Source: Quercus robur (Eukaryota; Streptophyta; Magnoliopsida; Fagales; Fagaceae). From it: a DNA stretch of 64,000 nt. The notes beneath the pieces were generated by a model. That model did no database searches. It worked only from the letters and a program-made list of their open reading frames with translations, and had not been told where the DNA came from. The stretch covers positions 48,271,854-48,335,853 of the forward strand of contig NC_065536.1 in assembly GCF_932294415.1 (NCBI RefSeq), read 5' to 3'. Made by a program: the position numbers and the translations under genes. Shown piece by piece: positions 1,437-55,300 of this stretch (its first letter is position 1; every line of letters starts with the position of its first letter).

Positions 1437-1906
1437 GAGCATCCACAACATGGAATCAAATTTTTAGCTTTTTAGTATCACAAAAAGTCATTTTATCTAC
1501 TTTACCTTTTCACATCTAACAACAGTGGTTTTATTTTAGATTTTAACACAATAAAATAATATAAACATTACAATAAAATAATATTTCATTCAACCACCAA
1601 AACACAACCACAACCAAAAGTAGTGTGAATGCATGGTGGACATTGGGAGATACATGGAGAGTAGTGAGGAGAGAGACAAAAGCAGTGTGAACGCAAAATA
1701 AATTTTTTATTTTTTTTTTATTTTACCTTTTAGCTAACGCTACCGTGCACAACCAAAAGTAGTTGTGCACAGTCAAAAGTAACTGTGCACTGTAGCTGTG
1801 GAGTTAAAAAATATAGTTTTAGCTCCATTATTGTAAGGTACATTTTGATATTTAGTAGTACTAAAAATAGTTCTATAGCTATTTAGTACCACTATTACTA
1901 GTGCTC
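1437..1906. mobile_element. PIF/Harbinger-like MITE
   Basis: The element starts GAGCATCCAC and ends with GTGCTC, giving a short imperfect inverted terminus (GAGCA). TAA trinucleotides flank it at 1434-1436 and 1907-1909, the target duplication expected of PIF/Harbinger (Tourist-like) elements. The interior contains repeated CAACCAAAAGTA and TGTGCAC words and has no coding frame. The inverted repeat is short, so the call is moderate. Confidence 0.45.
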
Positions 1907-1924
1907 TAATAAAAGAAAAGAATG

Positions 1925-2090
1925 TCTAGCTTTCCTAAATAAAGTGAGTTACAACATTGCCCCGTCGCGTAATACAAGAGAAGGAAATGCCCACTAAAGA
2001 GCCAATTATAGACAAAGTGTCTTTTACTAAATGTCCAATGGACGAGAGAGAAGAACCAACATGGTTTAAGTTAATAACAACCTCCGAATC
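1925..2090 (-). pseudogene. LINE RNase-H-like (RVT_3) domain, downstream half
   Basis: Read on the minus strand this encodes the second part of a plant LINE-type RNase H-like domain. It opens with DSEVVI, the position of the conserved GDSxxVI strand, and later has an RRGNVVTH motif matching the family's RxGNxxAH. It ends at a stop near 1930. The first half lies at 8026-8300, on the far side of the MULE. It is a decayed retroelement fragment, not a host gene. Confidence 0.65.
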
Positions 2091-2099
2091 ACCATAAAA
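2091..2099. repeat. MULE target-site duplication, left
   Basis: ACCATAAAA lies directly outside the left terminal inverted repeat and is identical to 8017-8025. Nine bases is the standard Mutator target duplication length. Confidence 0.9.
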
Positions 2100-2360
2100 G
2101 GCGAAAATGGGTAATTACCCATCAAAAGCAAACTATATAGTTAAGAGGACCGGTTTACAAACTATATGGATTTTTAGCAACTCGAGCCTTAAAGGCTCGA
2201 TTTTGGGCTTCAAAATCGAGTCTTTAAGGCTCGGTTTGTATGCTTGACCACGTCTGATGTGGCAGAGTTGCCATCTGGTATTGACATGGAAATCGAGTCT
2301 CTTAGACTCGATTTCCACGTGTATTCCAACCGGAAATCGAGTCTTAGAGACTCGGTTTCC
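2100..2360. repeat. Left MULE arm: terminal inverted repeat plus palindromic units
   Basis: After the 26-bp perfect terminus, the arm holds about four short self-complementary units of the type CGAGTCTCTTAGACTCG, near 2178-2197, 2215-2233, 2292-2311 and 2336-2354. The related right arm is at 7637-8016. Each unit could form a hairpin in single-stranded DNA or RNA. Confidence 0.75.
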
Positions 2361-2394
2361 AATTGGGGTTTTTCAAAATTAACGTCTTCGTCTA

Positions 2395-2790
2395 TTGCAT
2401 TTGTCTCACTTTCACTCACACTCACGCTCACACCCTCTCACTCTCACACAAACCAGAGCGCTCTCACTCTCTCACCCTCAGTCTTACATTTTCATTTCCC
2501 ACACTCACAAAACTCTCTCATTTTCTCTCTATCTCTCACACGGTCTCTCACATTCACACACGCTCACACACACACAGAACCCCGCCGGCGTCGACGAGCA
2601 GAGCCCAGCCCAGCCCAGCGACGACGCCGACGAGGCTAAGCCCAGCCATCGGCTCCTCTCCTCATCGATCTCTCTCTCCCTCACTAGGAGATCCTTTCTC
2701 CTTTTCTCCCTCTCTCTCATTACCACCCCCGTCCCCATTCATTTTTCCTCACCATACCCATACCCATACCCATTCCGATTTTGGTTGGTA
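2395..2790 (+). promoter_or_regulatory. CT/CA-rich probable 5' leader of the PMD gene
   Basis: This stretch is dense in CTCTCAC and CACACA words, typical of a plant 5' leader. It ends at a good donor (GGTTG|GTAAGT near 2789). A matching acceptor, TTCTTCAG, lies at 3742-3749, one base before the PMD start codon. The reading is therefore a leader exon followed by a long 5'-UTR intron. The overlapping open frames are low-complexity and were not called. Confidence 0.4.
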
Positions 2791-3750
2791 AGTTATTTAT
2801 ATGATTTTTTGTTTTGATTAATGTGAAATTTTGGGTTTGGATTTGGATACTTAACATCTAGGTTATTTATTTAATTTTCAGTTTTGATTTTTGTGAAATT
2901 TGGGTTTGGATTTTGTGGTAGATACTTTATTTAATTTTTATTTTATGATTTTTATGAAATTTGGGTTTGGATTTGGTGAGTGCAGATGACATTGTTGCTT
3001 GGATAGTGCATATTGTTGCTGCCATCCTTAAGAGTTTCCAAATTTCTGCCTTCAGGTTAGATTGTTATTGCTGATTAGGATTATAGCTTTTACGAGAGAA
3101 TTGTATATCTCATTAGGCCCATTTGCTTGTCTATTAGGAGCTTAGAACTTACAAGTTTATATGAAATAGTTATCTCATATATTTATAGTGCTTGCGTACC
3201 ATTACAAATTACTAAATTATATGCATATAAAAAAGCACTTAGTAGTTTGCTATTGAAGAAACAAATTACATAGTCTTTTTTCAGTTATGTATTTTGGTTG
3301 ATTGGTTATGATTTAGGTTTTTCGGTTAGGAATGGTTTTGTTTAATTAGTTTAAATAGATGGATTAGATTTAGTTTTGATTAAGGGATTTTGGTTAGAAG
3401 TTTTGTTTACGTTAGCTGGCTTGGCATAAATTGGTTTTAGGTATCTAGAATCGATTTTGCATATTTGGGTGGCTTTGATTCGGTGAACAAAGCACATAGA
3501 ACTTACGGCTTTAAGCTACGGGTGCTTTTGAACTCTAGGAACCAAATGCCTCTTTGAAACTGTAACCTTAAAAATAAAATCCTAAGTCTAAAAAGCTTTG
3601 TGTTCATATTGGTCTCTTTTGGTTTAGTCTTTCATCTTTTACTGAATTCTCATTGTACAAATTGGTTTTAGTTGCTCTAACTCATACCTATATATTTAAG
3701 CATATTGTGTGTTCAATTTTGAAACTAACTGCTTATCATTCTTCTTCAGT

Positions 3751-4677
3751 ATGTCTGCTGCAAATGCTGGACGCATTGACTATACACAGCCTGGACCCAT
3801 TGACGACTCGGTGTTGTCACAGCAGGCGACGCATCGGTCTGAAGCTATTTGGAATGGGCGGGTAAAACACTCAACTAAATATTTACGTGTGCACATGCAT
3901 TTAATCCATACAATGTACACGTATTTGCATATACTATATTAATCCATAACGAGATGTTATGTGCAGGATCCAGGGTCCATTACCTGCCGTAGTCGTAGTT
4001 CAGAGTTCTCCAAGCAACCTCCAATGATGGACGACCGAGTGAGGAACATCATCACCACAATTGGTTTGGAGGGACTCCTGTGGGTCCCGGGTAGAGAGAT
4101 TGACAATGGCCTCATAACGGCCTTAGTGGAGCGATGGCCGCCCGAGACTCACACCTTTCACATGCCACATGGTGAGGTGACCATCACATTGCAGGATGTG
4201 GAGGTTCTTCTCGGGCTTCCTGTTGATGGTGAGGCTATAACAGGGAGCACACAAAAAACTTGGGTGGATGTGTGCCGGGACTTCCTTGGCTTTCGACCTG
4301 TAACTCAAAACAACCATAAGCAACTTGATGGGCAGAGGATTCTCATCAACCGCCTTTTGGAGGAAGTTGCTAACCCATTGCCGCCTGATGCTGAAAAGGA
4401 TCAGCTGCATAAGTATGCACGATGCTACATCCTAGCGCTATTGGGGCACACAATATTCATGGACAAATCCGGCGATAGGGTGCATCTAATGTGGGTGCAG
4501 CAGTTGGAAGACCTTCACAACCCACGGAGGTACAGTTGGGGAAGTGCTTGCCTTGCATGGTTGTATCGAGAGCTATGCAGGGCAAGCGAGGACACCAGTC
4601 AGATTGGTGGGTGCTTGCTGTTGCTCCAGTACTGGGCATGGGCCAGGTTCCCCTATTTGTGCCCGACAGTTGAGTGA
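3751..4677 (+). CDS. Plant mobile domain (PMD/MAIN-like) protein, C-terminally short
   Basis: Two coding exons are supported, 3751-3861 and 3967-4677, joined in phase 0 by GT-AG sites and giving about 273 aa. The start is the first ATG after a TTCTTCAG acceptor. The product matches the aminotransferase-like plant mobile domain of transposons and of the domesticated MAIN/MAIL1 proteins. Recognisable segments are GLEGLLWVPGREID, LITALVERWPPETHTFH, GEVTITLQDVEVLLGLPVDG, and the late AWLYRELCRAS and LLLLQYWAWARFPYL. Domain order is intact from about residue 55 to the end. The frame stops just after RFPYLCPTVE, where family members usually continue for a hundred or more residues, so it is probably truncated. 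PMD proteins are nuclear and linked to silencing or genome stability when domesticated; the function inside transposons is unknown. Confidence 0.8.
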
Positions 4678-4730
4678 GGCCCGCCAGTGGGTGCTTACGG
4701 TCCTCCAGTACGTGGTCCACTATCCCTGAA

Positions 4731-6200
4731 GTAAGTCTCTACCTCATACTGCTATAACATACTGTCTTCACCAAAGCACGAGTCTTATATTATGTTTTGA
4801 GTTCTTTTTCTATTTGGTTCTAACTTCTTCTTGAGTATTTTTATTTGCTATTTGAAGTCCTAGTCTCTTTAGGTTATTTATAAAGGCTTTATTGTAATCA
4901 GTAACACTCATAGAGAGAGTGAATTTTAAAAGAATGATGACAGCTTATTTTACGCTTTGCCTTTGAGAGTGTTTGTTTAGGGTTTATCTTTCTTTGTTTC
5001 CCATTCTATTCACTCTTTTAAACCAAACAACAACTGACTCATTCAAGATCCAATCTTTTTATTGATTAGCCCAACCCACACCATCAAATATCAAAGTCTA
5101 TTTAAGAACCCTTCAAGATTTGATCAAAAACCTTAATTTAGTACTGAATTTTTAAAGATCCTACATCGATTGTCCTCTTATTATACTGTCTAATATTATG
5201 CAAATGACAGCCTAGATACTGAGTAATTATAGTCTGAACAAAATGCAAGACTGTCTTGCACATAAATAAGCTGCGAATGGTTACATGCTTGCAACCAAAC
5301 TTTTGATGTGCTTGCCCTCTGAATTAAAATTATACCTAGTCGTCAACATGATATTTTAATCCCTCAAATACCAAAGATTGGACTGCCCTGAAGCCTTTCC
5401 AGCAGACAAAATGATACTTGATATACTATTTTTCCCTTCAAATGGAGGTCCATTGAAACTTCTATAGCACAAACTATGCAGACAAGACGCAATTTACACC
5501 ATGGAAAATTCAAAACTGTTTAGCTTTAAACTGCAAGACTTGGGTGCACAAGATAGATGCCATGTTTTAGTGTTTTATTGAGGATTTTGTGTTTTAGTGT
5601 TTTAGTGTTTTATTGATTGGTACATAGGATTTTGCTCTTTCTTTGTTTTTAGCCTCTTTTTTTTGGGATTTGGTGGTTTAATTTGCCGTGTTTTTGAGGT
5701 TTTGTAGTGTGGCTGATTGGTTTGGGTTCTAGTTTGTTGTGTGATGCCATGGTTTTTTAGCTTGGTTGTTTTGGGGATTTTCGCTAAAATTTTGGTTGTG
5801 GAGCTGGATATTGGCTTGTTAGAAGGCTTATTTGGGAAATTGGATTTGGGCTTTTTGATGTGTTTGCTTCTGTGAAGTTTGATTGAGGAAGCTGAATAAT
5901 CGATTTTTTTCATTTGCTTGAGTTGCCTTCTGAAATGGGAGTTGATGGATATGGAAGTTCTTTTGAGCATTTTTTAATTGTAGAATGTGTATTTGATGTG
6001 CTATTATGTAACAACATCATTCAAGTAATTTTAAATTAATGCCATACCCAATTACACTACTATTGATGAAATAACATAGAGCAGGGTTCATCAGACAAAA
6101 AAAGAAAAAAAAAACACTAATGTGAATATAATCATGATCAATCAAATTAGACATATCATCTAATTTAATATATAAATATAAATATATTTATATATTTAGC
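4731..6200. other. MULE interior without a recognised gene
   Basis: Downstream of the PMD frame there is no further coding match. A lysine-rich minus-strand frame at 5602-5970 comes from low-complexity T/G-rich DNA with the repeated word GTGTTTTAGTGTTTTA near 5567-5615, and was not called. The region may include the PMD 3' UTR. Confidence 0.5.
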
Positions 6201-6207
6201 CTATTTA

Positions 6208-6916
6208 TACAACTATATAATTAAATATTTATATAAATATATTTATATTTAGCCTATTTATACAACTATATAATTAAATATTTATATATTTATATAAATA
6301 TATTTATATAAGTATTTATATATATAGTTGTATAAATATAAATATATTTATATAAATATTTAATTATTTAATTATATAGTTTTATAAATATATAAATAAA
6401 AATATGTATATATAAATATTTAATTATATAGTTGTATAAATATACATATAAATATAAATATAAATATATATACGTATTTTTTTTTTAAGCCAAACGTATG
6501 CAGCCACAAATACATAAACACCTTTATACCTATGCTCAAATAACAAAAAGCAAATACCATGTACTATCCAACTAAGAGAGCCTCAAAAAGCTTATTAATC
6601 TCAAAGAACTAGAACCTTAAACCACAAAACATTCCCAGCTAAACAAAAGCTACAACTATATAATTAAATATTTATATAAATACATTTATATAAATATATT
6701 TATATTTAGCCTATTTATACAACTATATAATTAAATATTTATATATTTATATAAGTATTTATATATATAGTTGTATAAATATAAATATATTTATATAAAT
6801 ATTTAATTATTTAATTATATAGTTTTATAAATATATAAATAAAAATATGTATATATAAATATTTAATTATATAGTTGTATAAATATAAATATAAATATAA
6901 ATATATATACGTATTT
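6208..6916. repeat. Duplicated AT-rich palindromic segment in the MULE
   Basis: Two near-identical AT-rich copies lie at about 6208-6480 and 6651-6916, separated by about 170 bp of ordinary sequence. Each opens with TACAACTATATAATTAAAT and closes with its inverted counterpart (ATTTAATTATATAGTTGTA), so each can fold into a long imperfect hairpin. Both end ATATATACGTATTTTT. The interior is ATATTTATATAAA-type repeats. Confidence 0.8.
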
Positions 6917-7636
6917 TTTATAAGGAAACAAATATACATATTTTAATACAAACAAATATCTTATTAGGAAACAAATATATTTGCCTAATACAAACAAATA
7001 TTTTATTACGAAATGGCATATACACTAAAACAATGCAAGCAATAATGGTTAAAGCAGCTATATACACTAAACAACTAATTAGAGAGTGAGGAGACCCTTA
7101 CTTGACATAATGATGTGCAAATGTACTGCTGAGATTGTATGAGAGTGAGAGGAGCAATGCTTTGCTGCTAAATATGTATGAGAGTTTCAGTCTCTGTGAG
7201 AGTTCTTAAGAGAGGTTCTGTGATTGAAGTTGCTGAAGGTGTGAGAGTTGTTGAGGCTTTGTGATTCAAGTTGTTGAAGGTGTGAGAGTTGTGTTTAGTC
7301 TGAGAGTTGTGGTTCAACATAGTCTGAGAGAAGTTTTTGGTGCTTGTGCTAGTTTAACATATTTTTTGAATATGTCTCAAAACAGACAAATTATATTCAC
7401 ATGTCCTTCAGCAACGTACTCAATTAATAGTGTACCTGCAACAAAGACTGTTGTTGACTAGCACAAGCACCAAAATAGACTAATAGGCTAACAAGCAACA
7501 GACAAATTATATTCACATGTCCAGCACAAGCTTAATAGACTAGCACAGAGCACAATGTATTCAGCTAATAGACTAGCACAGAGCACAGCAAAGACAGCTT
7601 GATATGACCAGACAAGCAGACGAGAGTGCTTTGAAA

Positions 7637-8016
7637 CTCGAGTCTCTAAGACTCGAGTTCAGTTTGCCTTAAAACTCGAGTCTCTAAGACTCGGTTTCAA
7701 AGTTAAACATGCGCGCGTTTTTTTGCTTAAAACTCGAGTCTCTGAGACTCGGTTTACTTAAAGTGAAACCGAGTCTCAGAGACTCGATTTTAACACGTGG
7801 CATCTATGTGGAACTTGAGTTTCTGAGACTCGAGTTTCATGTAAACGCCACGTGGATTTTTGCCACATCAAACAACCTAAACCGAGCCTCAGAGGCTCAA
7901 TTTAGGGGCCCAAAATCGAGCCTCTGAGGCTCGAGTTGCTAGTTTCCCAATTTCTTTCAAAACCGGGCCAACTAACTGAATAGTTTCATCTTGATGGGTA
8001 ATTACCCATTTTCGCC
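7637..8016. repeat. Right MULE arm with about seven palindromic units
   Basis: Units of about 20 bp based on CTCGAGTCTCTAAGACTCGAG lie near 7637, 7675, 7733, 7766, 7815, 7882 and 7916. They vary by A/G and C/T changes that usually keep the self-complementarity. The outermost units are the inverted counterparts of those in the left arm. The arm ends in the 26-bp perfect terminus. Confidence 0.75.
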
Positions 8017-8025
8017 ACCATAAAA
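8017..8025. repeat. MULE target-site duplication, right
   Basis: ACCATAAAA lies immediately outside the right terminus and is identical to 2091-2099. Confidence 0.9.
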
Positions 8026-8300
8026 TATAGAGTTATTCAACCCAAGTTCACGAATGAAAGTCACAGCCCTTTGAGCAACCAACATTTCCAGCAAGACAAC
8101 AGATGCAGGCAAAGAAATGTTTTTTGATAGCGCTGCCATGACCTCATCCCTGCAATTCCAAACCACCACCCCAATCCCAGCTTCATTAGTTTCTGCGAAA
8201 ACAGCACCATTAAAATTTGTTTTAAAACAATTAATCAGCAGCCAGGGCTTTCCACTTAACCATTCTAGCTTGAGCGTTGTCGAGGTACTGTGGGAGGCTT
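8026..8300 (-). pseudogene. LINE RNase-H-like (RVT_3) domain, upstream half
   Basis: Minus-strand reading gives the first strand of a plant RVT_3 RNase H-like domain: FNGAVF and AGIGVVV, then an EMLVAQRAVTF helix. Family consensus features are FDGA, GxGVVxRD and EAxAxxxAL. The frame runs up to the MULE insertion point and resumes at 2090. A poly-T run at 8299-8313 breaks the sequence on the 5' side. It is a decayed LINE ORF2 C-terminus. Confidence 0.65.
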
Positions 8301-8313
8301 TTTTTTTTTTTTT

Positions 8314-9410
8314 CGCCGAAACTCTTGTAACAAAAGACTAGCTGACTTGACTATTCTTTGAACCGGAAGGCATGACTTGACTTGACTTTTCAACCCAGGT
8401 CTCGACACTTTTATTGAATTAATCCAACATGATTTACACATAGATCAACCACTTAAAGTTTTTCAATCACTAATTTACACTCAAGTAAATTGTAATATAA
8501 TTCTGTCTATAGATTTTTTTTTTTTTGAAATTTAAATTAGATATATATTATATTTTAATAGTAAACTGCCAAATGTCTCGGTATTGTGAAGAGAAGAAAA
8601 CAGGAGTATTACTAATTAAGACACATATTAATAAACTATTTTAAAATTTTTTTATATAAAAATGAAAAATTACTGTTGTAACTTTTTTAATAATTTTTTT
8701 AATTTTTTATAAGTTATTTTTAAAAATAAATGATTAATATGAGTCCGAATTAAAAAAAAAAAAAAAAAAAAACAAATATACTGATATTTCCGCAAAACAT
8801 GTTCCACGTTTTGTATGTAGTCGTTAAAATATTCAGCTCACCACAATAACCCTGTCCACGCAAACTAGGACTGAGGTGGCGATTCTACGGCTAAGTGAAA
8901 TACCCATAATGCCGTACGGAGTCAAAAGTCTTTCTAAATTCATTATAGTGAACTACCAAATATACCCTTGAGCTTATCCTGCTTTCGTCTCCGCACCGGA
9001 CACTAATGAACGTTGGATAGAATTTTGCACATGATGATGTGTCAATAATCCAAAAGTCTCAGAGACTCCGTAGTCCGTACCAAGAAGTCAGCAATATAGC
9101 TCTGATTAGTAATTACACCGTGACAGGGTTACTCTAGTAATTTCATATAATACGATAAGATTACAAAAGTAGTTCCCTTTTGGAAATTGTAAAAGAGAAA
9201 TATTCCGCTGCGACAAAGTATTAAAAGTTTCTCTTTCCAAAAATTTGTGACCAATACTACCTAACCACGTCACATAAATATAAAATGTTATTTTTATCGA
9301 AGTAGCAGAGAATTTGCGCACCTTTTCTTTTTGCACCTGCACCGCAGTTTCGTCGTCGGTCATTTTTGTCTTTTACAGAGTCTCAAACTCAAAGTGTACA
9401 GTACCGTAAT
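8314..9410. other. Intergenic, probable CAMTA4 upstream region
   Basis: No coding match. AT-rich with homopolymer runs (A tract 8753-8772). The part from about 8800 is less AT-rich and leads into the CAMTA4 promoter. Confidence 0.4.
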
Positions 9411-20830: not shown

Positions 20831-23800
20831 CCACAAATTCATTGAGAATTTGCTGCTTCATCAACTTCAGTATCAGAACAAATTTTGTGACATTTTTATT
20901 TTCCATAATATAGTTGGTTTTCTCTTGAACTAGATAGCATAAGGTTCATGGACTTAGGTTAGGTCCACTTCAGTGAATTCCTGAATGAATGTCCTCTTTA
21001 ACTTTTTCAAAATGGTAGAATCTCTCTCTGAAACTGAAGATCTACTGGTCATGCCATGTTAAATGGATTTTGATCCACTGGGTCATTAGCCCTGCCCTAT
21101 TATTTCTTTAATGGGGTTCGTCATTTATTGACAGATAATTGAGGATTTATCTTTTTTAGAATTGGATGAAAAAGATTAAAATGACTCTTCAAATTTCACC
21201 TTCATGCTATATAAGGGTTGGTCCTGATCTAATAATTCAACATGCATTCCCTGGATGGATATGCTGAATTCTGCCATAAATTAATTTGTTGGTGCAGCTG
21301 TTATTTTGTGGAGTGTGAAATTACTGATTGTCCCAAACTCTCCCTTTAGTCCCAACACATGGGATTTTTAACATTTTAAATGGGAGGTAGATTGGGGACA
21401 AAAATCAACCTCAGGATCTCCCGCTTGATACCATGTCAAAATCAAAATGAAATAGAGAATATTGGATTGAAGATGGACGCAAGAGAGAGAACACATGAGA
21501 GTTATGTGGTTCGGCCTTGTGGCCTACATCCATGGGACAAGAGCCCAAAGGGCTACAGATTTACATACATCTTTCTTGAATATACATTACAATGGGATCC
21601 ATATTTGTAATGGGATTTACATACACAAGTCTATGATAATTTGAATTTGAACTGCATATTTGTTGCCTCAATCCCACGATTTTATCTAACAATTATTCCC
21701 ATAATTTTCTCTCAAAATCAATGTCTTGATTTGGTCTTCAATGACATGGAAAGTAAATTATACTTTCCAACATGGAGTTTAAGTTCAAATAATTCTAATT
21801 GCAGGTCTTCATCATTGGATCTTTCCTCTGTGATCCATTGGAATCTGCCTGGACTTGTATGTTTGGTGATCTTGAAGCTCCTGTTCAGATCATTCAGGAA
21901 GGTGTCATCTGCTGCGAAGCTCCTCCTCACCTTCCTGGAAAGGTGACTCTCTGCATCACTTCTGGCAATCGGGAATCCTGCAGTGAAGTCAGGGAGTTTG
22001 AGTATCGGATTAAGACTAGTGCTTGTGCTCACTGTAATTTGCCTAATACAGAAGCTGCCAAAAGTCGTGAAGAGTTGCTGTTACTTGTTAGATTCGTGCA
22101 GATGCTTCTTTCTGAATCATTGATGCAGAAAGGAGACACTGTAGAATCTGAAATTCAACTACTTAGAAGATCTAAAGCTGATGAGGATTCATGGGATCAT
22201 GTCATAGAGGCTCTCTTAGTTGGCAGCGGAACTTCATCCAGCATGATTGATTGGATTCTTCAAGAGCTTCTAAAAGACAAGCTGTGCCAGTGGTTTTCAT
22301 CCATATCCCAGGAAGGACCTGACCAGACAGGCTGTTCCTTGTCCAAGAAAGAGCAAGGGATAATACACATGGTTGCAGGGTTGGGCTTTGAATGGGCCCT
22401 AAACCCAATTCTCAATTATGGTGTCAATATAAACTTTCGTGACATTAATGGGTGGACTGCTCTTCATTGGGCTGCACGCTTTGGAAGGTAATTGAAACTG
22501 CTGATATTGCAGCAGAAAAATAAGGATTATAGCTCTTATATGAAGAAGCATTTGTGTTCCCAAAGTTTTTGGAACTGATAAATTGAGGTTTTAGGTGGTT
22601 TTGACCTTGGGTTATTTGAGAGAGAGAAGGGGGGGGGGGGGGGGGGGGATTTCTTTTATCACTTATTGAGTCACATGGTGCACTAAAATCTGAACTAATA
22701 TGTTATTCAAATAATTCTTTATATCAAATTATATTTCAAACTCCATGTTTCAGAAAAGCGTAGAAATATACACCGCTAAACTTCATGTGTAATCTTCTCC
22801 CCAGTTTGAAGTTTGAAATCCAATATACATATATTGAAATCAACTATTATATGTTTTAACTTCCTCGCTTGTTCATGAAATATTGTTCAAAAGACTATGT
22901 TAGACATTTCATAGACTTCCACCCAAAGGGCAGAAAAATACTTGTTTGCAACAACAGTTGAACACATCTATGAATTTCTAGATCATTTTTGATACCTAGC
23001 TAAATGTTCCATATCTCATGTAGCTATGAGAAAGGAATTACAGCTGTGCGTCACTGGTCTATCAGTTCTTTGTATTGCATACCTATGGCCAAAGGGAAGA
23101 AAAGATGCAGGATGACTACTAGTGAAGTAGATACAATGCAAAATAGTATGGGTTAAACGTTACCCTCAAAATGTTCTTGGATGTGCTGCACATGATTGAA
23201 CAGCACCAATTTGTTTATTGTGCTGTGGCTCAGGAGCTGTGGTCTATGATATTTTTTCTGTTTGGTGTTTCTTGGGCGATGCCAAAATAGGTGCAGGAGA
23301 TGTTTGCGTGCTGGAATGAGTGTTTCAGAAGAAGAGGCAATGGGTGGATATGGCAGGCAGTTCCATTATGTCTCATGTGTTGTCTTTGGAGAGTGGAATG
23401 ATTGGTGCTTTGAGGGACATGACCTAAATGCAGCAAAGTTGAAGTATCTATTACTCAAGTCATTATTTGATTGGATTTTGCAGTCTGTTTTTTTTCTGTC
23501 GCGGGGTTCTTGCATTTCCTGGATTCCTTGAGTTTCCACTAGCTCTATATGTTTACTTTTTTTCATCTTGCTTTCTTTTGTTTTCATGTTGTACTATCAT
23601 TACACATCTCATGTACTTGGTCAGAACCTTTATATTTTTCTTCAATAAACTTTTACTTATATAAATAAATAAAAAAGAAGCAAATTCGTATATCACTAAG
23701 GTTGGTTTGGTTAGTAGTAAGCCATAGCATATTATTATCATTAAGGTTCATCACTGAGTCAATTTTTCATATGCAATTAATCTTATCTACAAAATTTTTA

Positions 23801-25881
23801 AGGTTGTTGATCTCTATGCCAAAATTCTTTATACGCTGCATCTGCTATATTATTTAATGCCTACATGTTATTTGATTAGTTTACCATTTACATATTGCTC
23901 TTCTGTAACAGGGAAAAAATGGTCGCTGCACTTATTGCTTCTGGTGCATCAGCTGGGGCAGTGACAGATCCCAATTCACAAGATCCAAGAGGTAAAACCC
24001 CAGCATCTATTGCAGCTACAAATGGGCACAAAGGACTGGCTGGCTACCTTTCAGAGGTGGCATTAACTAGCCATCTGTCATCCCTCACACTGGAAGAAAG
24101 TGAGCTTTCCAAAGGCTCTGCTGAGGTTGAAGCAGAAATAACTGTGAATAGCATTTCAAAAGGAAGTCTTGCGTCAAGTGAGGATCAAATCTCCCTTAAA
24201 GACACCTTAGCTGCTGTCCGGAATGCAGCCCAGGCTGCTGCACGTATACAATCTGCTTTCCGTGCACATTCATTCAGAAATCGACTACAGAGACAAACTT
24301 CCTCTGTTGCTAGTATAGATGAATATGGTATCAATTCAGATGACATTTCAGCACTGTCAAGGCTAGCCTTTCGTAACCCACGTGTTTACAATTCTGCTGC
24401 ATTATCTATTCAGAAGAAGTATCGAGGTTGGAAAAGTCGCAAGGATTTCCTAGCATTTCGCCAGAAAATTGTTAAGATACAGGTATCACCTTTTTCAATC
24501 TGATGACACACTGAACACTGGGAATTTCTCTGTGCTTTAGTAATGTGTGTAGATATTACTCAGACATTTATCAACTCTCATAATGGATGACTCAAGGAGT
24601 ATATAAATTTATCCCCTTTCTTTTTTCTATAATAACAAACTCACATCCATATTAAATTAGTTAGTATAAAAGATTATTAACTTTTCTTGCTTGGCAGGCT
24701 CATGTGAGAGGTTATCAGGTAAGAAAGCATTACAAGGAAATCTGTTGGGCTGTTGGAATTCTAGATAAGGTTGTACTACGATGGAGACGGAAAGGAGTTG
24801 GTTTGCGAGGTTTTCGGAATGACACACAGATCATTGATGAAACTGGAGATGAAGACATTCTCAGGGTGTTTCGCAAACAAAAAGTGGACGTGGCTATTGA
24901 AGAGGCTGTCTCACGGGTGCTGTCAATGGTTGACTCTCCAGAGGCCCGTCAACAATATCATCGTGTGCTTGAGATATACCGCCAAGCTAAGGTTAGTAGG
25001 CAAGAGTTCTTGAATTGATGTTCGACTATAGCTATGTTTGTTGATGATGATCCAACAAGTTAATATGTGATTTCAAATCATTGAATCTCAACCTCAAGTT
25101 CATCATTAAACATTTCATTAATTTGGCAATTGACAACATATAGGATTAGAAACAACTATATGGAAGGGGGAAGGAACTTAAGAGTTCTGATTTTATTTTT
25201 GCTTCTAATTAATGAGAATAAGAATCAGCATTATACTGCATGATATGAAGCAACAGCATCCAAATTTGTGCCTAAGATCAACCCATAGTCATCTATAACC
25301 AAGTGTTTTTTTAGTCCCTTCCCTGATCCCAACACCTTTCATTGCAAAATGCTTGGCAATCCTTGGTAGAGCTTATTTATGATGTCATGCCAAACCTGTT
25401 AAACAAACAAATTCGTGTCTTTTTTTGAAATAGTAAAAGTTTTACCTTACATCTTAGTCACTAGTACCTTTTCATTCTAAGAAGCACAAACACAGTGACA
25501 CGACAGGGAAACAGCAATTAAGTTATATTATATATTAGGCATAATTTATGATCATCTTAGGTTTAAATTGCAATATATTTTATGTGTTGATATATATTTA
25601 TTTATCATTCTTTAGTAAATGTAATTTCTCCCTTAGAAAAAGAAAGGAACCCTATATCATATTATTTTTGTCTGCTTCAATAGAAAAGGCCCTTGTTTAA
25701 AAATAAATAAATAAATAAAAATCATCCAAAGGTCCAGTATCTTATGGAGCCAATTGGCCCAGTCTGTCTGCTCGTACTCTTTCTCATTTACTCTATTCCT
25801 TAATTCCTTCTCACTTTCCTCACTTTTGACCCAAAACAAAAAGAAAAATCTCCTTTTCCTTGAGAGTCATGACACAATATA

Positions 25882-25914
<33 letters not shown>

Positions 25915-27095
25915 GACACAGAGGCGAGATGCCACCAAAGCTCTAAGATTTATGGCCTCCTCGCTAACACTAGATATAAGCTCCTCTGAACTCTGCTGTG
26001 TTGCCCTGTGCCTTGAACATGTTGAGACCGCTCCTCTGACCACAACCATGGTCTCTACAACCTCCTCTCCACTGTAGACTCCCTCTTCAAATTGGACCAA
26101 GCCACATCTCTTAGTAGGCCATCAAGCATCAAGCTCCTCAATTTTAGCCCTTTTTTAACCTTTCAACTTTAAACTGCAGTGCCTATCAAAAAACCTTTAA
26201 GATTGACTGCATCTTGGACTATGTCCCAGACATATTCAAACTGTCCTTGGGATGTTTGTGCATTTTAGGTTTCATTATCTTGTAATTCCCAAGGTATGAT
26301 ACCTTACAACTTCATAGTTACTAGTCATTTTCTCGGTGCTTTGGGTCTCTCATTTTATATACTTGTTAGCATTACTATAGTGGGATTTCAAAGAAATGGG
26401 CTTCATTTTTTTAAGCTTCTCGTTACCCCCAGGAGTCCCACTACCAAGTCTGGCTAAAAGTTGTAACTCCTTAATTGAGCTTTACAAGTTCAGTCAGTTG
26501 CAAGTCATGATTTTTTTTTTTTTTTTAATATGGTCAGGATAGACTGGTTCTCTTGATGTTTTGTTTTGTTTTCAGAGTAAATGCACTCTCTCTTGAGAAC
26601 ACTAATTTCTTTTTCTGTCCAAAATTTATGAGACAGTTTGCGTGTAGATTTCCAACCATACATTTCATTAGGTTAAATGATGGTTCACATATGTTATATT
26701 GGATGCAAATCATATTTTGGAACATTTACAATTTAAGATGTTATTCGAGTTCAATCATGAAGGGTAATTACTTTTGGAGGGTCCCTATTCTATATATTTG
26801 GAAGCCAGGTGTATGACTTCTTTGGCCAAACATCCTTAAATTAACCATAAGAATTAAAAAAAGATAACATGGCTCCAATATCCTATATTATTTAGTAGTA
26901 GTATTTTTTAAGTTTATCCTAATGGCTTTGGTCTCTCTATGTTGGCATTTTATTCGCCTATATGTATAAGTTACTGAATTTATTCAACCATTCATGCAGG
27001 CTGAACTTGTTGGCATGGATAGTGAAGGTGTGGGATCAACTTCTCTAGGTGATGTGTTTGGAATGGAAGATGAAGATTTGTATCAATTCCCATAG
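9578..27095 (+). CDS. CAMTA4: Calmodulin-binding transcription activator, CAMTA4 type
   Basis: Thirteen coding exons in consistent phase give 995 aa: 9578-9590, 12014-12139, 12226-12341, 14026-14114, 14380-14425, 15018-15507, 17054-17205, 17494-17581, 18457-18680, 21805-22487, 23912-24482, 24698-24991, 27000-27095. All introns are GT-AG. Domains in order are: CG-1 DNA-binding domain (about 5-130, with RWLKPAEVLFILQNH and DGHNWRKKKDGRTVGEAHERLK); IPT/TIG fold (431-516); ankyrin repeats (631-725, with GWTALHWAA); three IQ motifs (about 783-880, AARIQSAFRAHS first); and a calmodulin-binding helix (881-906, VVLRWRRKGVGLRGFR). Length and domain order match Arabidopsis CAMTA4 (about 1,016 aa). CAMTAs are nuclear activators that bind CGCG/CGTG elements and respond to Ca2+-calmodulin in cold and defence signalling. 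Exon 1 encodes only four complete codons. Introns 1, 9 and 10 carry transposon remnants. Confidence 0.95.
10900..11725 (-). mobile_element. LTR-like remnant in CAMTA4 intron 1
   Basis: This non-coding stretch resembles a copia LTR read in antisense: a TGGTAACAAAGTGGAAAAC block, serial short motifs and an AGGGCCTTATATAGGCAATGC TATA region near 11500-11522. Boundaries are uncertain and no target duplication was confirmed. Confidence 0.35.
11745..11835 (+). mobile_element. SINE-like fragment in CAMTA4 intron 1
   Basis: The segment has a tRNA-like B-box (GAGGTTCAAGGCC) and a downstream TGTGTAACTAACAATA tail, as in plant tRNA-derived SINEs. The A-box end is not clear, so it may be truncated. Confidence 0.35.
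12342..14025 (+). other. CAMTA4 intron 3, no gene recognised
   Basis: A 1.7-kb intron. It holds a small perfect inverted motif (AAATTCCACCTCTAGAGGTGGAATTT) at about 12939-12964. The reading frames near 13305-13710 lie on opposite strands of the same DNA and match no family I recognise. Confidence 0.4.
14809..14829. repeat. Poly(C) tract
   Basis: About 20 C residues follow a CCACCACCACC repeat in CAMTA4 intron 5. Probably microsatellite expansion; length uncertain. Confidence 0.8.
16470..16610 (-). mobile_element. SINE-like fragment (Au-type) in CAMTA4 intron 6
   Basis: The GGGGTTTGGGAAAGG start, TAGCTAGCCTTGCCCCCAA block and CCAGAACCCACGACGCATT region resemble the body of plant Au-type SINEs, whose B-box region reads GAACCCGTGACC. 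No poly-T tail or target duplication was resolved. Orientation is uncertain. Confidence 0.35.
17773..17845 (+). mobile_element. Short SINE-like insertion with 22-bp target duplications
   Basis: The 73-bp insert contains a B-box-like GGGTTCAAGACTC and a TAAATAAATAAAAAA tail. It is flanked by direct repeats at 17751-17772 and 17846-17867 that match at 21 of 22 bases (GATAATRTTTGGTAGAGTATGC). An A-rich tail plus long variable-length duplications are signs of LINE-assisted retroposition. The 5' half of the SINE is missing. It lies in CAMTA4 intron 8. Confidence 0.65.
18349..18375. repeat. (TA)n microsatellite
   Basis: An alternating TA run followed by a T tract, about 80 bp upstream of CAMTA4 exon 9. 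Confidence 0.9.
19150..20900 (+). mobile_element. Decayed Ty3/gypsy remnant in CAMTA4 intron 9
   Basis: An LTR-like AT-rich stretch ends near 19575 and is followed at about 19578 by TTGGTATTAGAGCA, close to the initiator-tRNA primer-binding sequence TGGTATCAGAGC. At about 19634-19960 a frameshifted integrase core fragment follows (PWQYLSMDF, then IVDRFFKIANFI, then KLFGLPKTIAHEKEF). A second, diverged LTR-like block lies at about 20480-20870 and ends before CAGTATCAGAAC. A separate GC-richer repeat with TGCCCTGC/TGCCCCAC words sits at about 20064-20465. All frames are broken. Same orientation as CAMTA4. Confidence 0.6.
21395..21800 (-). mobile_element. Antisense LTR-like piece before CAMTA4 exon 10
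   Basis: CTTGATACCATGTCAAAATC near 21424 is the reverse of a primer-binding-type TGGTATCA word next to an LTR terminus. The following sequence (TTATGTGGTTCGGCCTTGTGG at about 21498) is a motif often seen in plant retroelement LTRs. The 3' boundary is not defined and it ends close to the exon 10 acceptor. Confidence 0.35.
22627..22649. repeat. Poly(G) tract
   Basis: A run of about 20 G residues in CAMTA4 intron 10 directly after a GA repeat. Its length is prone to sequencing error. Confidence 0.8.
23200..23680 (+). mobile_element. 5'-truncated LINE 3' end in CAMTA4 intron 10
   Basis: With one stop or frameshift, the sense strand encodes the end of a LINE ORF2: ELWSMIFFLFGVSW, then WQAVPLCLMCCLW and a KVEVSI-like end. 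This is the zinc-binding RT C-terminal (zf-RVT) region of plant L1-like elements. A T-rich 3' UTR and an ATAAATAAATAAAAAAG tail at about 23660-23677 follow. It lies in CAMTA4 sense orientation, within an intron. Confidence 0.6.
24992..26999 (+). other. CAMTA4 intron 12, no gene recognised
   Basis: A 2.0-kb intron. It holds a CAGA tetranucleotide repeat near 25887-25912 and a GC-richer patch at 25920-26130 with a frame on each strand. Neither frame matched a family I know. Confidence 0.4.
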
Positions 27096-27691
27096 CATCT
27101 GTTAATCAGTCTAACTAATCATAGGTTGACCATTTTTTAATCTCTCTAGATGGTTTCTGGATTTAGTTTGTGCATAATGGGTTGGATTTCACTAAATTGT
27201 ATAGTGATAGATAAGCTCTTGCTCTAATATATTGATTATGTAAATGCTTCATGTAATTGTTGTAAATGGTTTTTTTAGGGGTTTGAATGGGTTTAAGTAG
27301 AGAGAGACTCCCTTGCCCTTCCTCTCTTTCAGATATCCTTCTCTTTGCACCAGGTAGGCCAGTAAAAGCCTCAGAATTAAATCAAGTCATGGAATCCAGA
27401 TCCTTCTTACAAAGCAATTTTCCCATCTGGCTACGCTGCTGAAACGATTCTGGGGCTTTGGGGGGTTCTATTATTTAAAAGATCGCCATTTGGTGAGAGT
27501 CTGAGCCTTAGATAAATCCCTTTATTCTCTGACCAATAGTCCCACGATTACGGAGCCTTTGTGTACCTATTAGTATCCTAGTTTTACCCTAGTGTGCTGC
27601 AAGATGGGAGTGAAGAATTTATTATGCTTAGAAGTTGGTTCATGCGCCCAAGACTCGTACCTTATCTTCCTAACGTATTCAACGGAGACAT

Positions 27692-34953: not shown

Positions 34954-36235
34954 TCATGCATAGTTCAAACGGAATATGTCATTAAACACGTAAAAGCTTC
35001 CCTGCGGTGTTGGTATCAAATGGAACATCTGAGCGCAGAAAGCGTGACAAGAAATTACAGTTAGAACAAAGAAACACAAGAATAAAAGAACTATTTCTTT
35101 TATTGTTAATTTACACACACAATAAGTGAAGAACCTACAATGTACCATTTGAACTAGAGATCATTCATCAGCACAAGAATAAGTTAATACATGAATACAT
35201 ATAATCATAAAACACGCACAAAGAATCAAAGATACAACATGTCAATTTAGGTTTATAATTATTTCAAGCAATGATTCTTAACCACATCATTAGTATATAG
35301 TTGGCTCGCACTTCATGCAAACCATTAACTATTAAAACATATAGGTCTAGAGGCCGCAGAGATTTAAATGCCATGATTCCTATATAAGAACAGAAATTGA
35401 ATAAATAAAAGCAAAAGGTTTAAGAGTCCAATAATAAGTACACCAAAAAATTCATAAAGGCTAGCATAAATACAAGCATAATCAGAATATCAAATGAACT
35501 CAGACATTGAATGCTCGTCTGCCTATCAAGGAGACCGAGTAATGCTACCGCCATAAATTATTTTACAACATTTTTACAAACCGTTAATATGATCAACTTC
35601 TTACTCATCTAGGCCCACCAATAACATCACTTCTTCATTTACCGATAATAAAAAAAGTTTATATCTCTGGCATTACTCTAAAAGACTAGATAGCTTTCAT
35701 ACCAAGAATCTCATTTTTTTTTTTTTTTTTATTTCACCATTAGCGAGTAACACAATCATTCCGATTCCGAAATCTAGAATGTGAACAATTGAGGGAGAAA
35801 AACATTGAAATCGGTACATTCAAAAGCAATATATTCATCCAAAAAGCAGACGATAAACCCTAGATCCGAACAAAAAAAAAAAAAAAAATTCAAAGTAGAT
35901 CTGAGGGATCTGGAATCCGATCGATTCGAAATAGGTACCTGGCTGAACTTGAGGGCGTGTTGTTCACCGGCGAGCTGGAGGTTACCGCTGACGAAGACGA
36001 GCATGCCGCCGGCGGGGCCAGAGGGCTGGCAATCGACGGTGGTGATGCTGTGTTGGCACTGCTGGAAAGGGAGGCTGGTGAGCTTGGCGACGATGTTTGG
36101 GGAGCCTTGGATCTTCTGACCCTCGAAAGTAAGCATGGACTCCTCTTGGTATAGGCTAGCCAATCCGGCACGATTCGCATCGAACGTTGTGTAATAGTGC
36201 TCCACGAATGCTCTAGCCAACTGGTCTGGATCCAT
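34954..36235 (-). CDS. NTF2: Nuclear transport factor 2 (NTF2)
   Basis: Two exons on the minus strand, 36235-35939 (99 codons) and 35028-34954 (24 codons plus stop), join in phase 0 to give 123 aa, the usual plant NTF2 length. The whole protein is the NTF2 cone fold. MDPDQLARAFVEHYY opens it, followed by LYQEESMLTFEGQKIQG, VDCQPSGPAGGMLVFVSG and the C-terminal TPQGSFYVFNDIFRLNYA. NTF2 carries Ran-GDP back into the nucleus and binds FxFG nucleoporins. The start is the ATG of MDPDQ; an upstream in-frame codon at 36256 gives a less conserved extension. A GA/CT repeat near 36317-36336 lies in the probable leader. Confidence 0.95.
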
Positions 36236-36316
36236 CTCTCCGCCGCACCAGATCACTGCCCCTCCTCCGCTTATACCTCACGCTACCAACAGAGAGCTAA
36301 GAGACAGCGAGAAAGA

Positions 36317-45638: not shown

Positions 45639-46690
45639 TTAAGGTGGGTTCGTCCTCTCCTTGTTGATGAACCTCTGCAGCTTTCCTTGTCTGATAAGGG
45701 TTTCAATTTGTTGTTTTAAGTCGTAACAGTCAGCTGTGTCATGGCTGTGATCACGGTAGAAGCAGCAACACTTGTCTCTAGACCTCTTATTTGGATCTCC
45801 TTTTAGCTTGCCGAGGAAGGTCAGGGCTCTTTCGTCCTTATTTTGCATCAAGACTTGGTCGATCGGGGCAGTCAGCGGTGTGAAACTTACGAATTTTCTC
45901 GTGGGGGGCTTGGAACTCCTGTCCTCTCGCTGTTCTTCGGTCCTAGCCATCTTCCGTCCCCTATCCTGCCGTACATCCTCCTGTCTTTCCCGCTTCCTCA
46001 GCTTTTCTTCTCGGGCCAGCAACGCATCTTCTACGTTCATGTACTTGGTTGCCCTGTACAGTACATCTGACATAGTTTTTGGGTCCTTTTTGTATAGGTA
46101 GAACAGGAACTTACTCTTTTGTAATCTGTTCATGAAGGCAGCCACGAGTATCGGATCGTCTGCTTCATTGATCAAGAAAGCCTCTTTGTTAAAACGGGTG
46201 ATGTAGGACCTCAGCATCTTGTCCTCCCGCTGCTTAATGTTCATCAAGCATGCAGTTGACTTCTTATACCTGTGCCCCTCGATGAAGTGTGAGCCGAATT
46301 GGGCACTTAACTTCTTGAAAGTACTAATGGAGTTAAGCATCAGCCTGCTGAACCAGATCCTTGCGGATCCCTTCAACGTGGTGGGGAAGGCTCAGTACAT
46401 GATCTCATTTGGCACCCCTTGAAGGTGCATTAAGGTCTTAAAAGACTCCAAGTGAACTAAGGGGTCCTTGGGTCAATCATAATTTTCCACCTATGGCATA
46501 TGAAACTTCGATGGGAGGGGGATGTAGTGACAGACGTGAATGGTGAATCAGTCAGATGGACCAAATCATTAAGGTCACTAGACACCCGTCCTCTAAGTGC
46601 ATTCATCATAAAGTCCATCCGTTCCTTCATCATTTGCATCTTGGCGACTATATGAGGTGGAACCGTATTTGTGATGGATGGATGACTCAT
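45639..46690 (-). pseudogene. Gypsy gag remnant
   Basis: The 46376-45639 frame carries the retrotransposon gag core (ARIWFSRLMLNSISTFKKL, KQREDKMLRSYITRFN) and a zinc-knuckle-like end (CCCFYRDHSHDTADCYDLKQQIE). The N-terminal part (DFMMNALRGRVSSDLNDLVH) is in the frame ending at 46457. The two parts are separated by a break near 46380-46460. Confidence 0.75.
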
Positions 46691-52346: not shown

Positions 52347-55300
52347 CTATAGAATCCCATTTGGAACTGATTGGAAAAACCGTGAAACCTCCCTATAAAG
52401 TTGTTCAGCTTCAAATGGTTTTGAAACATATCCATCCATTCCACATTTTAGGCATTCCTCGTGTGTAGCCTGGATTACATCTGCTGTCATGGCCAAAATG
52501 GGAACATGCCAATTTGAAACATTATCATAGGCCTCCACAGATGTTTCTCCATGTTTCTCCATTTCCCGAATTAGTTTTGTAGCTTCAAACCTGTGCCAAA
52601 AGGAGATTCAATGGTTCTCAGATCTCGTGATTGATCTACCAATCACGTCTTTAAATTAGTAAAAATGAAAAAATGATCATCAATGGAAAGAGCAAAGCAT
52701 TCAATCCAAAGAGAGTTACTATCAATAATAAATGACAACAAACTTGATAAAATAAAAAAATAAAAAACTTGATAAAAACAGATGCCACAGTGCACAAGGC
52801 AGCCTACAATTACCCAAATGGTTAACTTGACAACTATGAGGACAGATTTTAGACTTAGATCATTAGAATAATATTTTATTTATTTCTTGTTTTCTAAAGA
52901 AAAGCCTCTCTGAAATCATTAGGCAATCAAGCATCACATACCCATCCATTTCCGGCATTTGGATATCCATGAAACAGGCATCAAAGCAGTGAGGTGGCTT
53001 AAGCAATGAGACTGCCTTTCTTCCACTGTCTGCACATTCTACTTCAGCCCCATACTTCTTCAAAGCACCAGCAGCTACTTTCAGATTCACATTATTGTCA
53101 TCTATGATAAGGATTTTTCTCCCAAGAAGAAGATTGCGGAGAGCCCCTTGCTCCCTATTGCGGGCAATCCCCTTGCTCCCAATACCCATGGCTCGCTGTA
53201 ATGAGGCAGCAAGCATGCTTGATCTTAGGGGCTTCATGATGATAGATGGGGTATTATCACCTGAAGTTGTGGCACTTGTTCTGGATGTACTGATAAAATT
53301 AGCTAGAATGAACAACTTAGGAGGAGTCCGACGGTCAATTTTCTTTAAGTTATTAATGAAAAGAGATGAAAGGTGTGAATCCCTATCCCAAACCTCCTGT
53401 TCAACAAGGACAATATCAATAGCCCCATTGCCACTGCTTATGTTAGACCAACCTTGATTCAAATCAGAGACTACTTCAACACTAATTCCAAGCCGTTGGA
53501 TATGATATCTTGAGACCTTAGCCCGTACAGGTCTAGGGTCTACAACTAACGCTGTCATGCCCTGAAATTCTGTGGATGCAGAATTGGATTGGTAGTTAAT
53601 TTTATGGCTTTTATACTCATCGGGATTGGAGCAGCCATTGGTGAAGACAGCAGTAAATGTAAAGGTGGAACCAGTCTTTGGAATGCTCACAAAACCAATT
53701 TCCCCATTCATAAGGCCAACTAAACACTTGCTAATGCTCAGGCCAATACCTGTGCCCCCATGTATTCGGGAGATTGATGGTCCAACCTGCATAAAAGGAG
53801 TGAAAACACGAGATTGCGCCTCCGGAGGGATCCCTGCTCCTGTATCCTCAACAGATACAATTAGGTTGATTGAGTCAGAGGGCAGTGAGAGAGGAAAAGT
53901 GGATCCCTCTTGACTGAAAGCCTTAAATCCTTTCCAACTACAACATCTATCAGTGACAGGGAATCCACTCAAGGTGTTCTCTGATGATGTCTCAACTTCT
54001 GTTGAACCAATCACCTCCTCGACAAGATGAACAGTGACAAATATGTGTCCTTTCTCTGTAAACTGCAACATAATTATCAGTTTTTGTCATTACTTTAGAT
54101 TTCATTAACATTAATCGCTTTCACATTCTAAGATTCCTATGTAATATACCATTATGCCTATAGCACAATTCAAAACAATTTTATTTATTTATTATTTTTT
54201 TGGATGAGAAAAAAAAATTAATTCTTTAAATCTGTTAAATTTCATCATTCTAATCTTTTTCCCCAAGATGAAAATGAAGACACTTCCACCTACAAGCCCT
54301 CATTTTTTAATATCAAACCAAGCTTGCTTTGCATAGAGTAATGACAGAATAGATTCTCATGATTGTTCATTCCCTTCTCCTCTCCCCCCCCCCCCCCCCC
54401 CTCTTTTTTCTGTATATCTTTTAAGTAATGGTAAACACTACTTTTTTTTTTTTTTTTCCCATAAAGTTTTTCCACTTAGAAGGTAATGATTTTATAACCT
54501 ACGGTGTACTTACTTTGATCGAGTTACCCATAAGATTGGTAATGATTTGGCGAAACCTTCCTGGATCACCAATTAGCATTTCAGGAACCCGGTCTGAAAT
54601 ATAAACTGCCAGCTGCTCCACGAGTTTGGCCATGCAAAAGTCCATCAATTCAGTTCATTAACAGCGAAAAGCAGCATGCAATGAGTGATAATGCAAAACT
54701 AGAAAGACTTATTACCTCCACTCCCTTTTCCTGGGACTTTCCAGAAAAGAGTGACAGAACATCATCTAAAATTGCTCGCAGATCAAATTGCACTGCATCA
54801 AGCTCAAGCCTGCCAGATTCAATCTTTGCCTGGTCTAAAACCTCATTTATGAGTGAGACTAGAGCTTTTCCACTGCCTTGTGCAGTTCTGACATAATCTT
54901 GTTGAGTAACATCAAGATCTGTGTCCATGAGCATATGCAACATTCCTGAAAAATTAACAGAATTGCAGTGTCATGGCTCAACAGTTTCTACCTTGAACAT
55001 CATGCAATATCAAGAACTAACTTAAATTACTATGCAACAGTTTGAAAGACTCACCAAGAACACCATTCATTGGAGTTCTGATCTCATGGGAGACAGTAGC
55101 AAGGAACTACAGAAGGTTATAATTTGATTAGGGCCACATGTGCATGATAAGAGCAAGCTAAATAGTGTGATTAAGTAATTAAAGCATCAAGCACCTGAGA
55201 TTTGGCAACATCAGCAGCCTCGGCTTTTTTTTTTAGCTCCATCATCTTGTTGTAATCATCCTCCACTTTAGCAATTCGATTCACAGTTGCATGAAATATA

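Follow-up and report, generated by a model that had tools for sequence, protein, structure and literature searches.

Mutator-like elements (MULEs) that carry genes besides their transposase are the closest described systems for the locus reported here, a 64,000-nucleotide stretch of the Quercus robur genome (assembly GCF_932294415.1, contig NC_065536.1, positions 48,271,854 to 48,335,853 of the forward strand, hereafter the window), which holds a MULE of 5,917 bp at positions 2100-8016. MULEs of grasses and Amborella in which the plant mobile domain (PMD) is fused to the transposase are described by Ikeda et al. 2017 (PMC5418596), who propose an anti-silencing use of PMD by MULEs as possible; a use of PMD proteins by transposons against silencing is also suggested in PMC8616336, and eudicots are described as holding mainly genic PMD-C (PMC7156037). 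Pack-MULEs hold intron-bearing host segments between MULE terminal repeats (PMC6431247, PMC8903248, PMC13317346). Pack-TYPE elements are defined as non-autonomous (PMC8903248), and none of the first reported Pack-MULEs exceeded 7 kb (PMC6431247). MULEs larger than 8 kb with extra genes are called unusual in the account of the Abermu elements of barley and other plants (PMC9168764).

With a probability of about nine in ten, the element in the window derives from a giant Mutator-like element, of which it is a non-autonomous copy with internal deletions. Its relatives carry the transposase gene MURA and a PMD gene as convergent genes, together with varying pieces of host genes. Judged from these sequences, a giant MULE with a core of MURA and PMD and a changing captured cargo, apparently autonomous, stands behind the window copy.

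The MuDR element of maize is about 5 kb long and contains the genes mudrA and mudrB, its second gene being mudrB and not PMD. The family described here has in common with MuDR (mentioned in PMC9168764) a pair of oppositely transcribed genes, long terminal inverted repeats, a 9-bp target duplication and internally deleted copies. The Abermu elements are likewise large and combine a transposase with an extra gene on the opposite strand; they are described as exceeding 8 kb with extra genes of unknown function, whereas the present elements are up to 30 kb long, with PMD as the additional gene (PMC9168764). A further gene, either anti-silencing or a long-kept captured host domain, is also found in the VANDAL/VANC and Kaonashi (Ulp1) elements, but these are MULEs without terminal inverted repeats and carry other genes, and an anti-silencing role of the PMD studied here is putative (PMC13317346). 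Among the titles and abstract openings listed in the literature searches, none was seen to describe MULEs as large as these that combine MURA, PMD and a multi-gene cargo.

Structure and target of the window element

The initial annotation, made from the sequence of the window, described a complete MULE with perfect 26-bp inverted termini, an exact 9-bp target duplication and a PMD gene. The features of the element and its target are given below, where E1 denotes the nearest relative read, an element of 28.0 kb at C40:1895665-1923663.

2091-2099, unstranded: left 9-bp target site duplication, ACCATAAAA, exact
8017-8025, unstranded: right 9-bp target site duplication, ACCATAAAA, exact
2100-2125, plus strand: left 26-bp terminus, identical to the right terminus in inverted orientation
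7991-8016, minus strand: right 26-bp terminus, identical to the left terminus, inverted
2100-2359, plus strand: left long terminal inverted repeat, about 260 bp, 74% identical to the right end, with four short palindromic modules
7765-8016, minus strand: right long terminal inverted repeat, with further palindromic modules from 7640 on
3557-3559, unstranded: join of deletion A, about 3.5 kb gone relative to E1
5998-6005, unstranded: join of deletion B, about 18.6 kb gone relative to E1
3751-3861, plus strand: first coding exon of PMD, with the ATG at 3751 and the splice site placed by eye (frame 3700-3942)
3967-4677, plus strand: second coding exon of PMD, with a premature TGA; the next exon (C-terminal part of the domain) is absent
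6160-6910, unstranded: A+T-rich tract in which direct and inverted repeats overlap, shared with E1
8026-8337, minus strand: first part of an RNase H-like (RVT_3) frame, which continues in the left flank at about 1938-2090 on the minus strand

Positions 1-1460 of the window element align with positions 1-1456 of E1 at 95.9% identity, positions 1458-3906 with 4971-7411 at 98.5%, and positions 3899-5418 with 25973-27500 at 98.8%, while the final 499 bases match E1 at 98.4%. Compared with E1, the window copy is without about 3.5 kb and about 18.6 kb, or about 22 kb of interior in all, and the longer of these stretches contains in E1 the C-terminal exon of PMD, the captured host pieces and MURA. 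The description of the element as complete holds for its ends and fails for its interior. Both joins show short overlaps. When the genome was searched with 161 bp across each join, the window copy was the only full match for join A (1 of 39 places, every candidate scored) and also for join B (1 of 40 scored places, the best 40 of 76 candidates). A place at C39:43.1M, which covered positions 63-159 of the query, was considered as a second copy of join B and rejected, the aligned DNA being undeleted and like positions 25654-26141 of E1.

The 5.9-kb element might be regarded as a type of its own, complete and with PMD for cargo, as its intact ends and duplication would suggest. This account conflicts with the collinear giants and with the private joins, and we consider it very improbable: half of the PMD domain is missing and its gene is stopped, the joins occur in no other scored copy, and larger collinear relatives exist. 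A different account concerns the place of the deletion, namely that a full-length element landed at this site and later lost its interior, so that the deleted form itself never moved. It agrees with the finding that both joins are private to the window copy among the places scored, but a deletion in mid-move, or a donor outside the assembly, would look identical, and we give it slightly less than even odds.

For a deleted copy of a giant element the following course may be proposed. MURA supplied by a relative would have moved the window copy or its longer parent, and the interior may have been lost through break repair at short repeats, either in mid-move by interrupted gap repair or after landing. 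The same type of repair, copying host templates, could have placed the host gene segments in the giants, an origin that would account for the introns and sharp borders of the captured segments and for their nesting. Loss and filling by break repair are suggested by the overlaps at the joins, by the intron-bearing, sharp-bordered segments and by the nesting.

The PMD gene of the window copy is real, as the initial annotation had it, and it is broken. Its second exon matches PF10536 with 175.2 bits (E 2.7e-51) but covers only positions 12-192 of 347, and the TGA that ends the frame is CGA in E1 and in two further giants, E2 and E3; the first exon gives no Pfam match by itself. The C-terminal part of the domain lies on a later exon in E1 (242-347) and E2 (240-347), and a C-terminal PMD query taken from the relative L040 found no match within the window element. 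The absence of MURA from the element was also noted correctly: no MURA-like frame was seen by eye among the open reading frames of at least 60 amino acids, and the MURA gene of the relatives sits in DNA that is missing from the window copy. Apart from PMD, none of the captured host pieces of the relatives is kept. Two options had been offered for the nature of the element. That of a non-autonomous derivative is borne out by relatives that have the same ends and encode MURA plus PMD. That of an element type with PMD as its main cargo does not suit the window copy, where PMD is truncated and stopped, and is half right for the family, in which all 15 relatives with paired ends hold PMD, beside MURA and captured pieces.

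The identity of the inverted 26-bp termini and the exactness of the 9-bp duplication on both flanks were confirmed. The two ends first differ at position 27, and they agree at 49 of the 60 outermost positions. A 21-bp terminal core, with up to 3 mismatches allowed, occurs at two places in the 64-kb window, which are the element ends, and at none in 100 shuffles. The inverted repeat is longer than 26 bp and extends for about 250-260 bp per side at 74% identity (gapped, 262 alignment columns), while an ungapped alignment of the ends gives 138 bp at 79%. Long terminal inverted repeats and a target duplication of about 9 bp, by which MULEs are recognized, are thus both present. The palindromic modules, of the form GAGYCT-N1-3-AGRCTC, number ten in the window, and all ten lie in the subterminal regions of the element (2184-2357 and 7640-7936), whereas 100 simulated sequences held 0.05 on average and at most 2; they are possible protein-binding sites or sources of hairpins. 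The initial annotation read a recent insertion from the intact ends. Insertion of a MULE does not make the two ends of the element identical, and a recent insertion of the window copy is plausible.

The target of the insertion was an RNase H-like sequence, of which 9 bp are duplicated. When the flanks are joined with one copy of the duplication, they form a minus-strand frame of 158 amino acids that matches RVT_3 with 48.0 bits over positions 1-117 of the 123 in the profile, and the element had therefore interrupted a continuous sequence. The right-hand part of the target by itself scores 21.1 bits, under the cut-off of 21.6.

Large relatives and their transposase

The genome was searched with 301 bp of the left end (best 40 of 988 candidates) and 317 bp of the right end (best 40 of 530), and the copy numbers from these searches are lower bounds. 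Left and right ends standing in a consistent order gave 15 end-paired relatives, and the end sequences of all 15 were read. Their lengths range from 6.8 to 30.4 kb with a median of 25.2 kb, most being longer than 16 kb, and 13 of them have a perfect 9-base duplication; three of the 13 duplications stand one base off the left end, and two of these three are also readable as 10-base duplications. The elements E1, E2 and E3 (pieces L044-L046, L075-L077 and L078-L080, respectively) have long terminal inverted repeats of about 260 bp with 82-86% identity. The search for copies with the same termini, which the initial annotation had proposed, thus finds them, with larger relatives that encode MURA plus PMD and no end-paired relative without PMD. 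The smallest of the 15, L091 (C6:28.4M), is an independent derivative of 6.8 kb, whose joins differ from those of the window copy and whose PMD is broken. Two short elements of about 1.0 kb (L090, 101-1134) and 1.1 kb (L092, 101-1221) have both ends related to the family; no family proteins were found in them, and their ends are without the exact 21-bp core.

MURA of E1 is an open frame of 937 amino acids on the strand opposite to PMD, with Pfam matches to the MULE domain PF10551 (62.5 bits), to SWIM (26.4 bits) and to the MuDR DNA-binding domain (24.9 bits, just below the cut-off of 25). A genome search was made with this protein, in which the best 49 of 1,692 candidates were scored. Eleven of the 15 end-paired relatives are among the matches listed, and with E3, where reading of the element showed MURA in two pieces, MURA was seen in 12 of the 15. 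MURA runs over positions 1-937 without stops in six of the 15, of which C1:14.9M has no target duplication, and both E1 and E2 hold an open MURA between their ends. Further listed members are 82-87% identical in MURA. Four sister loci were fetched, and two MURA and two PMD sequences of these were checked by Pfam. When the MULE transposase domain served as the query instead, the family was not listed (best 150 of 1,249 candidates, those listed all of at least 79.5 bits), whereas MURA of E1 scores 62.5 bits; the MURA protein as the query did bring the family up. The ratio of nonsynonymous to synonymous divergence (dN/dS) of MURA is 1.18 for E2 against E3 (9 versus 2 changes), 0.29 for E1 against E2 and 0.32 for E1 against E3. 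From its coding content, this group of giant relatives apparently includes autonomous MULEs.

Several observations weigh against the derivation of the window element from such a giant. The first aligned block is less like E1 (95.9%) than the other blocks, and E1 is therefore a near relative of the window copy and not its parent. The end pairs were matched by position, and the elements read through are E1, E2, E3 and L091. Two of the 15 end-paired relatives, C1:14.9M and C1:17.0M, are without a target duplication. MURA is missing from L091, which was read whole, and none was seen in C3:1.77M and C5:66k, which were read in part.

Captured host gene segments

Host gene pieces in the family include a KDM3-type JmjC exon in the giants (KDM3B match, E 2.3e-21), an RPN10 piece (8amz_W, E 3.9e-38), an RPT6 piece (E 2.2e-39) and, in L042, an ETR1 receiver piece (1dcf, E 1.7e-51). 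Further pieces are from kinesin, starch synthase and kelch sequences, the last being found in E2 and assigned by eye to an acyl-CoA-binding protein. PMD, the KDM3 exons, kinesin, starch synthase, RPT6 and MURA are common to E1, E2 and E3. RPN10 occurs only in E1 among these three and is nested inside the KDM3 segment, and the ETR1-like frame of L042 recurs in E2 (by eye).

The likeness to Pack-MULEs (PMC6431247, PMC8903248, PMC13317346) lies in the intron-bearing host segments between MULE terminal repeats, which are present in E1, E2, E3 and L042. The difference lies in the transposase and in size, MURA being present in 12 of the 15 end-paired relatives, most of which are larger than 16 kb. 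E1 and E2 possess a transposase of their own, and the window copy, with PMD as its only cargo, has none. In this family, captured host genes and a transposase occur together in elements of up to 30 kb.

The history of the KDM3 segment can be followed against its likely donor gene at C5:74.40M. E1 matches the donor over 760 bp at 98.9% and over 3,079 bp at 96.8%, introns included, with RPN10 between the two parts. In E2 the outer borders of the segment are kept and its middle is mostly replaced, and much the same holds for E3. E1 and E2 have the same sequence at both borders, beyond which the host gene continues. This arrangement fits a single capture followed by losses and nested filling. Since the capture can be read against the host donor with both borders visible, it becomes possible to trace in what order capture, loss and nested filling took place. 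Capture of histone demethylase genes by plant transposons has reportedly been described before, though no such work came up among the literature searched, and the novelty of the KDM3 capture is uncertain.

The idea that the captured KDM3 is a working anti-silencing enzyme was set aside, as the segment is without both ends of the gene and the whole exon is found in 7 of the 15 end-paired relatives. It is further weakened by RPN10, which interrupts the segment in E1, and by the large replacement of the segment in E2 and E3. Among the copies, dN/dS of KDM3 is 0.83-1.03 with few changes. Against the host gene, the pooled ratio of nonsynonymous to synonymous differences per site (pN/pS) is 0.43 for E1 (about 13 versus 8 changes), 0.75 for E2 and 1.03 for E3, and a weak constraint on the captured KDM3, partly on the host branch, is possible from these values.

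PMD beside MURA

PMD is present in all 15 end-paired relatives, and the searched exon is without stops in 13 of them; in E2, the three PMD coding frames are open. Pairing was counted between the 49 scored MURA places and 91 PMD places entered from a genome search with the PMD exon of the window (best 150 of 1,649 candidates scored), with a limit of 30 kb. PMD lies within this limit at 43 of the 49 MURA places, at distances of 4-29 kb, and all 43 pairs are convergent, whereas chance placement of PMD near MURA would account for 0.7%. The convergent pairing holds also in the subfamilies whose MURA is 82-87% identical. As in the elements described by Ikeda et al. 2017 (PMC5418596), PMD is thus found on Mutator-like elements; there it is fused, whereas here MURA and PMD are separate convergent genes on opposite strands, and the elements, with a median of 25 kb, carry host gene pieces. 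The six MURA places without a listed PMD are C4:79.2M, C38:19.0M, C4:36.4M, C6:5.2M, C1:16.0M and C5:8.5M, and the DNA that directly precedes PMD in the window copy recurs near two of them (C38:19.0M and C4:36.4M).

In comparisons between subfamilies, the PMD exon has a dN/dS of 0.18-0.39 and MURA one of 0.42-0.51. Synonymous divergence (dS) over the same comparisons is 0.31-0.47 for PMD, about twice that of MURA (0.16-0.20), though the two genes share elements, and MURA and PMD may therefore not share one simple history; exchange, repeated capture or different rates may underlie the discord. Within the subfamily of the window copy the changes in the PMD exon are too few to weigh (4 versus 2, 1 versus 2 and 3 versus 0). 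The C-terminal PMD frame gave a dN/dS of 1.37 for E1 against E2 and E3, which counts against constraint, over an interval that overran the domain into a probable intron.

MAIN and MAIL1, which are PMD proteins of the host, function in silencing. PMD could be an accessory gene that is kept since it helps the MULE, for example by blunting silencing, so that MURA and PMD would form a two-gene core comparable to mudrA and mudrB of MuDR; such a role would add to the explanation of the window copy as a deleted giant element and does not exclude it. Use of PMD by the element is suggested by its retention and constraint: it is found in every end-paired relative, unlike the captured KDM3 exon, its coding frames are open in E2, and its convergent pairing with MURA, far above chance, extends to other subfamilies together with low between-subfamily dN/dS for both genes. 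The idea is already in print (PMC5418596, PMC8616336), and the steady pairing provides a natural case for that suggestion. The doubled dS of PMD, the small numbers of changes within the subfamily and the six MURA places without a listed PMD speak against it, and the constraint between subfamilies may stem from host genes. An accessory role has, in our judgment, about an even chance.

PMD could instead be a passenger, captured once or repeatedly, kept by chance and spread as the elements multiplied. The family carries other host pieces without sign of use, the dS discord fits repeated capture or exchange, and PMD is broken in both the window copy and L091. A passenger would not be expected to keep a constant place and orientation relative to MURA at 43 of 49 places, or an open exon in 13 of 15 relatives while other cargo comes and goes, and this account is held only tentatively, at somewhat below even odds. 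A bolder form of the accessory role, in which PMD of giant self-mobile MULEs would be a working antagonist or hijacker of silencing by MAIN/MAIL1/PP7L while gap-repair refilling would build up the nested cargo, seems to us rather unlikely.

A second multi-copy PMD group was seen among the matches listed, with about 64% identity, scores that hardly differ and an open frame of 258 amino acids in common; examples are C2:97671245, C35:10044138 and C40:50861953.

Outside the element, exons recognized by eye resemble a calmodulin-binding transcription activator (21799-24503), NTF2 (35774-36277) and a hybrid histidine kinase (52863-54086), and ordinary genes are therefore present in the same window. 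A minus-strand open frame of 250 amino acids at 45639-46391 is retrotransposon gag-like (by eye). Elsewhere in the assembly, contig C42 (L093) holds an open rbcL gene, whose best match among solved structures is 4hhh of pea (1082.8 bits), ahead of 1wdd of rice (1068.7 bits), a difference that leans towards a eudicot, and the contig resembles a plastid genome.

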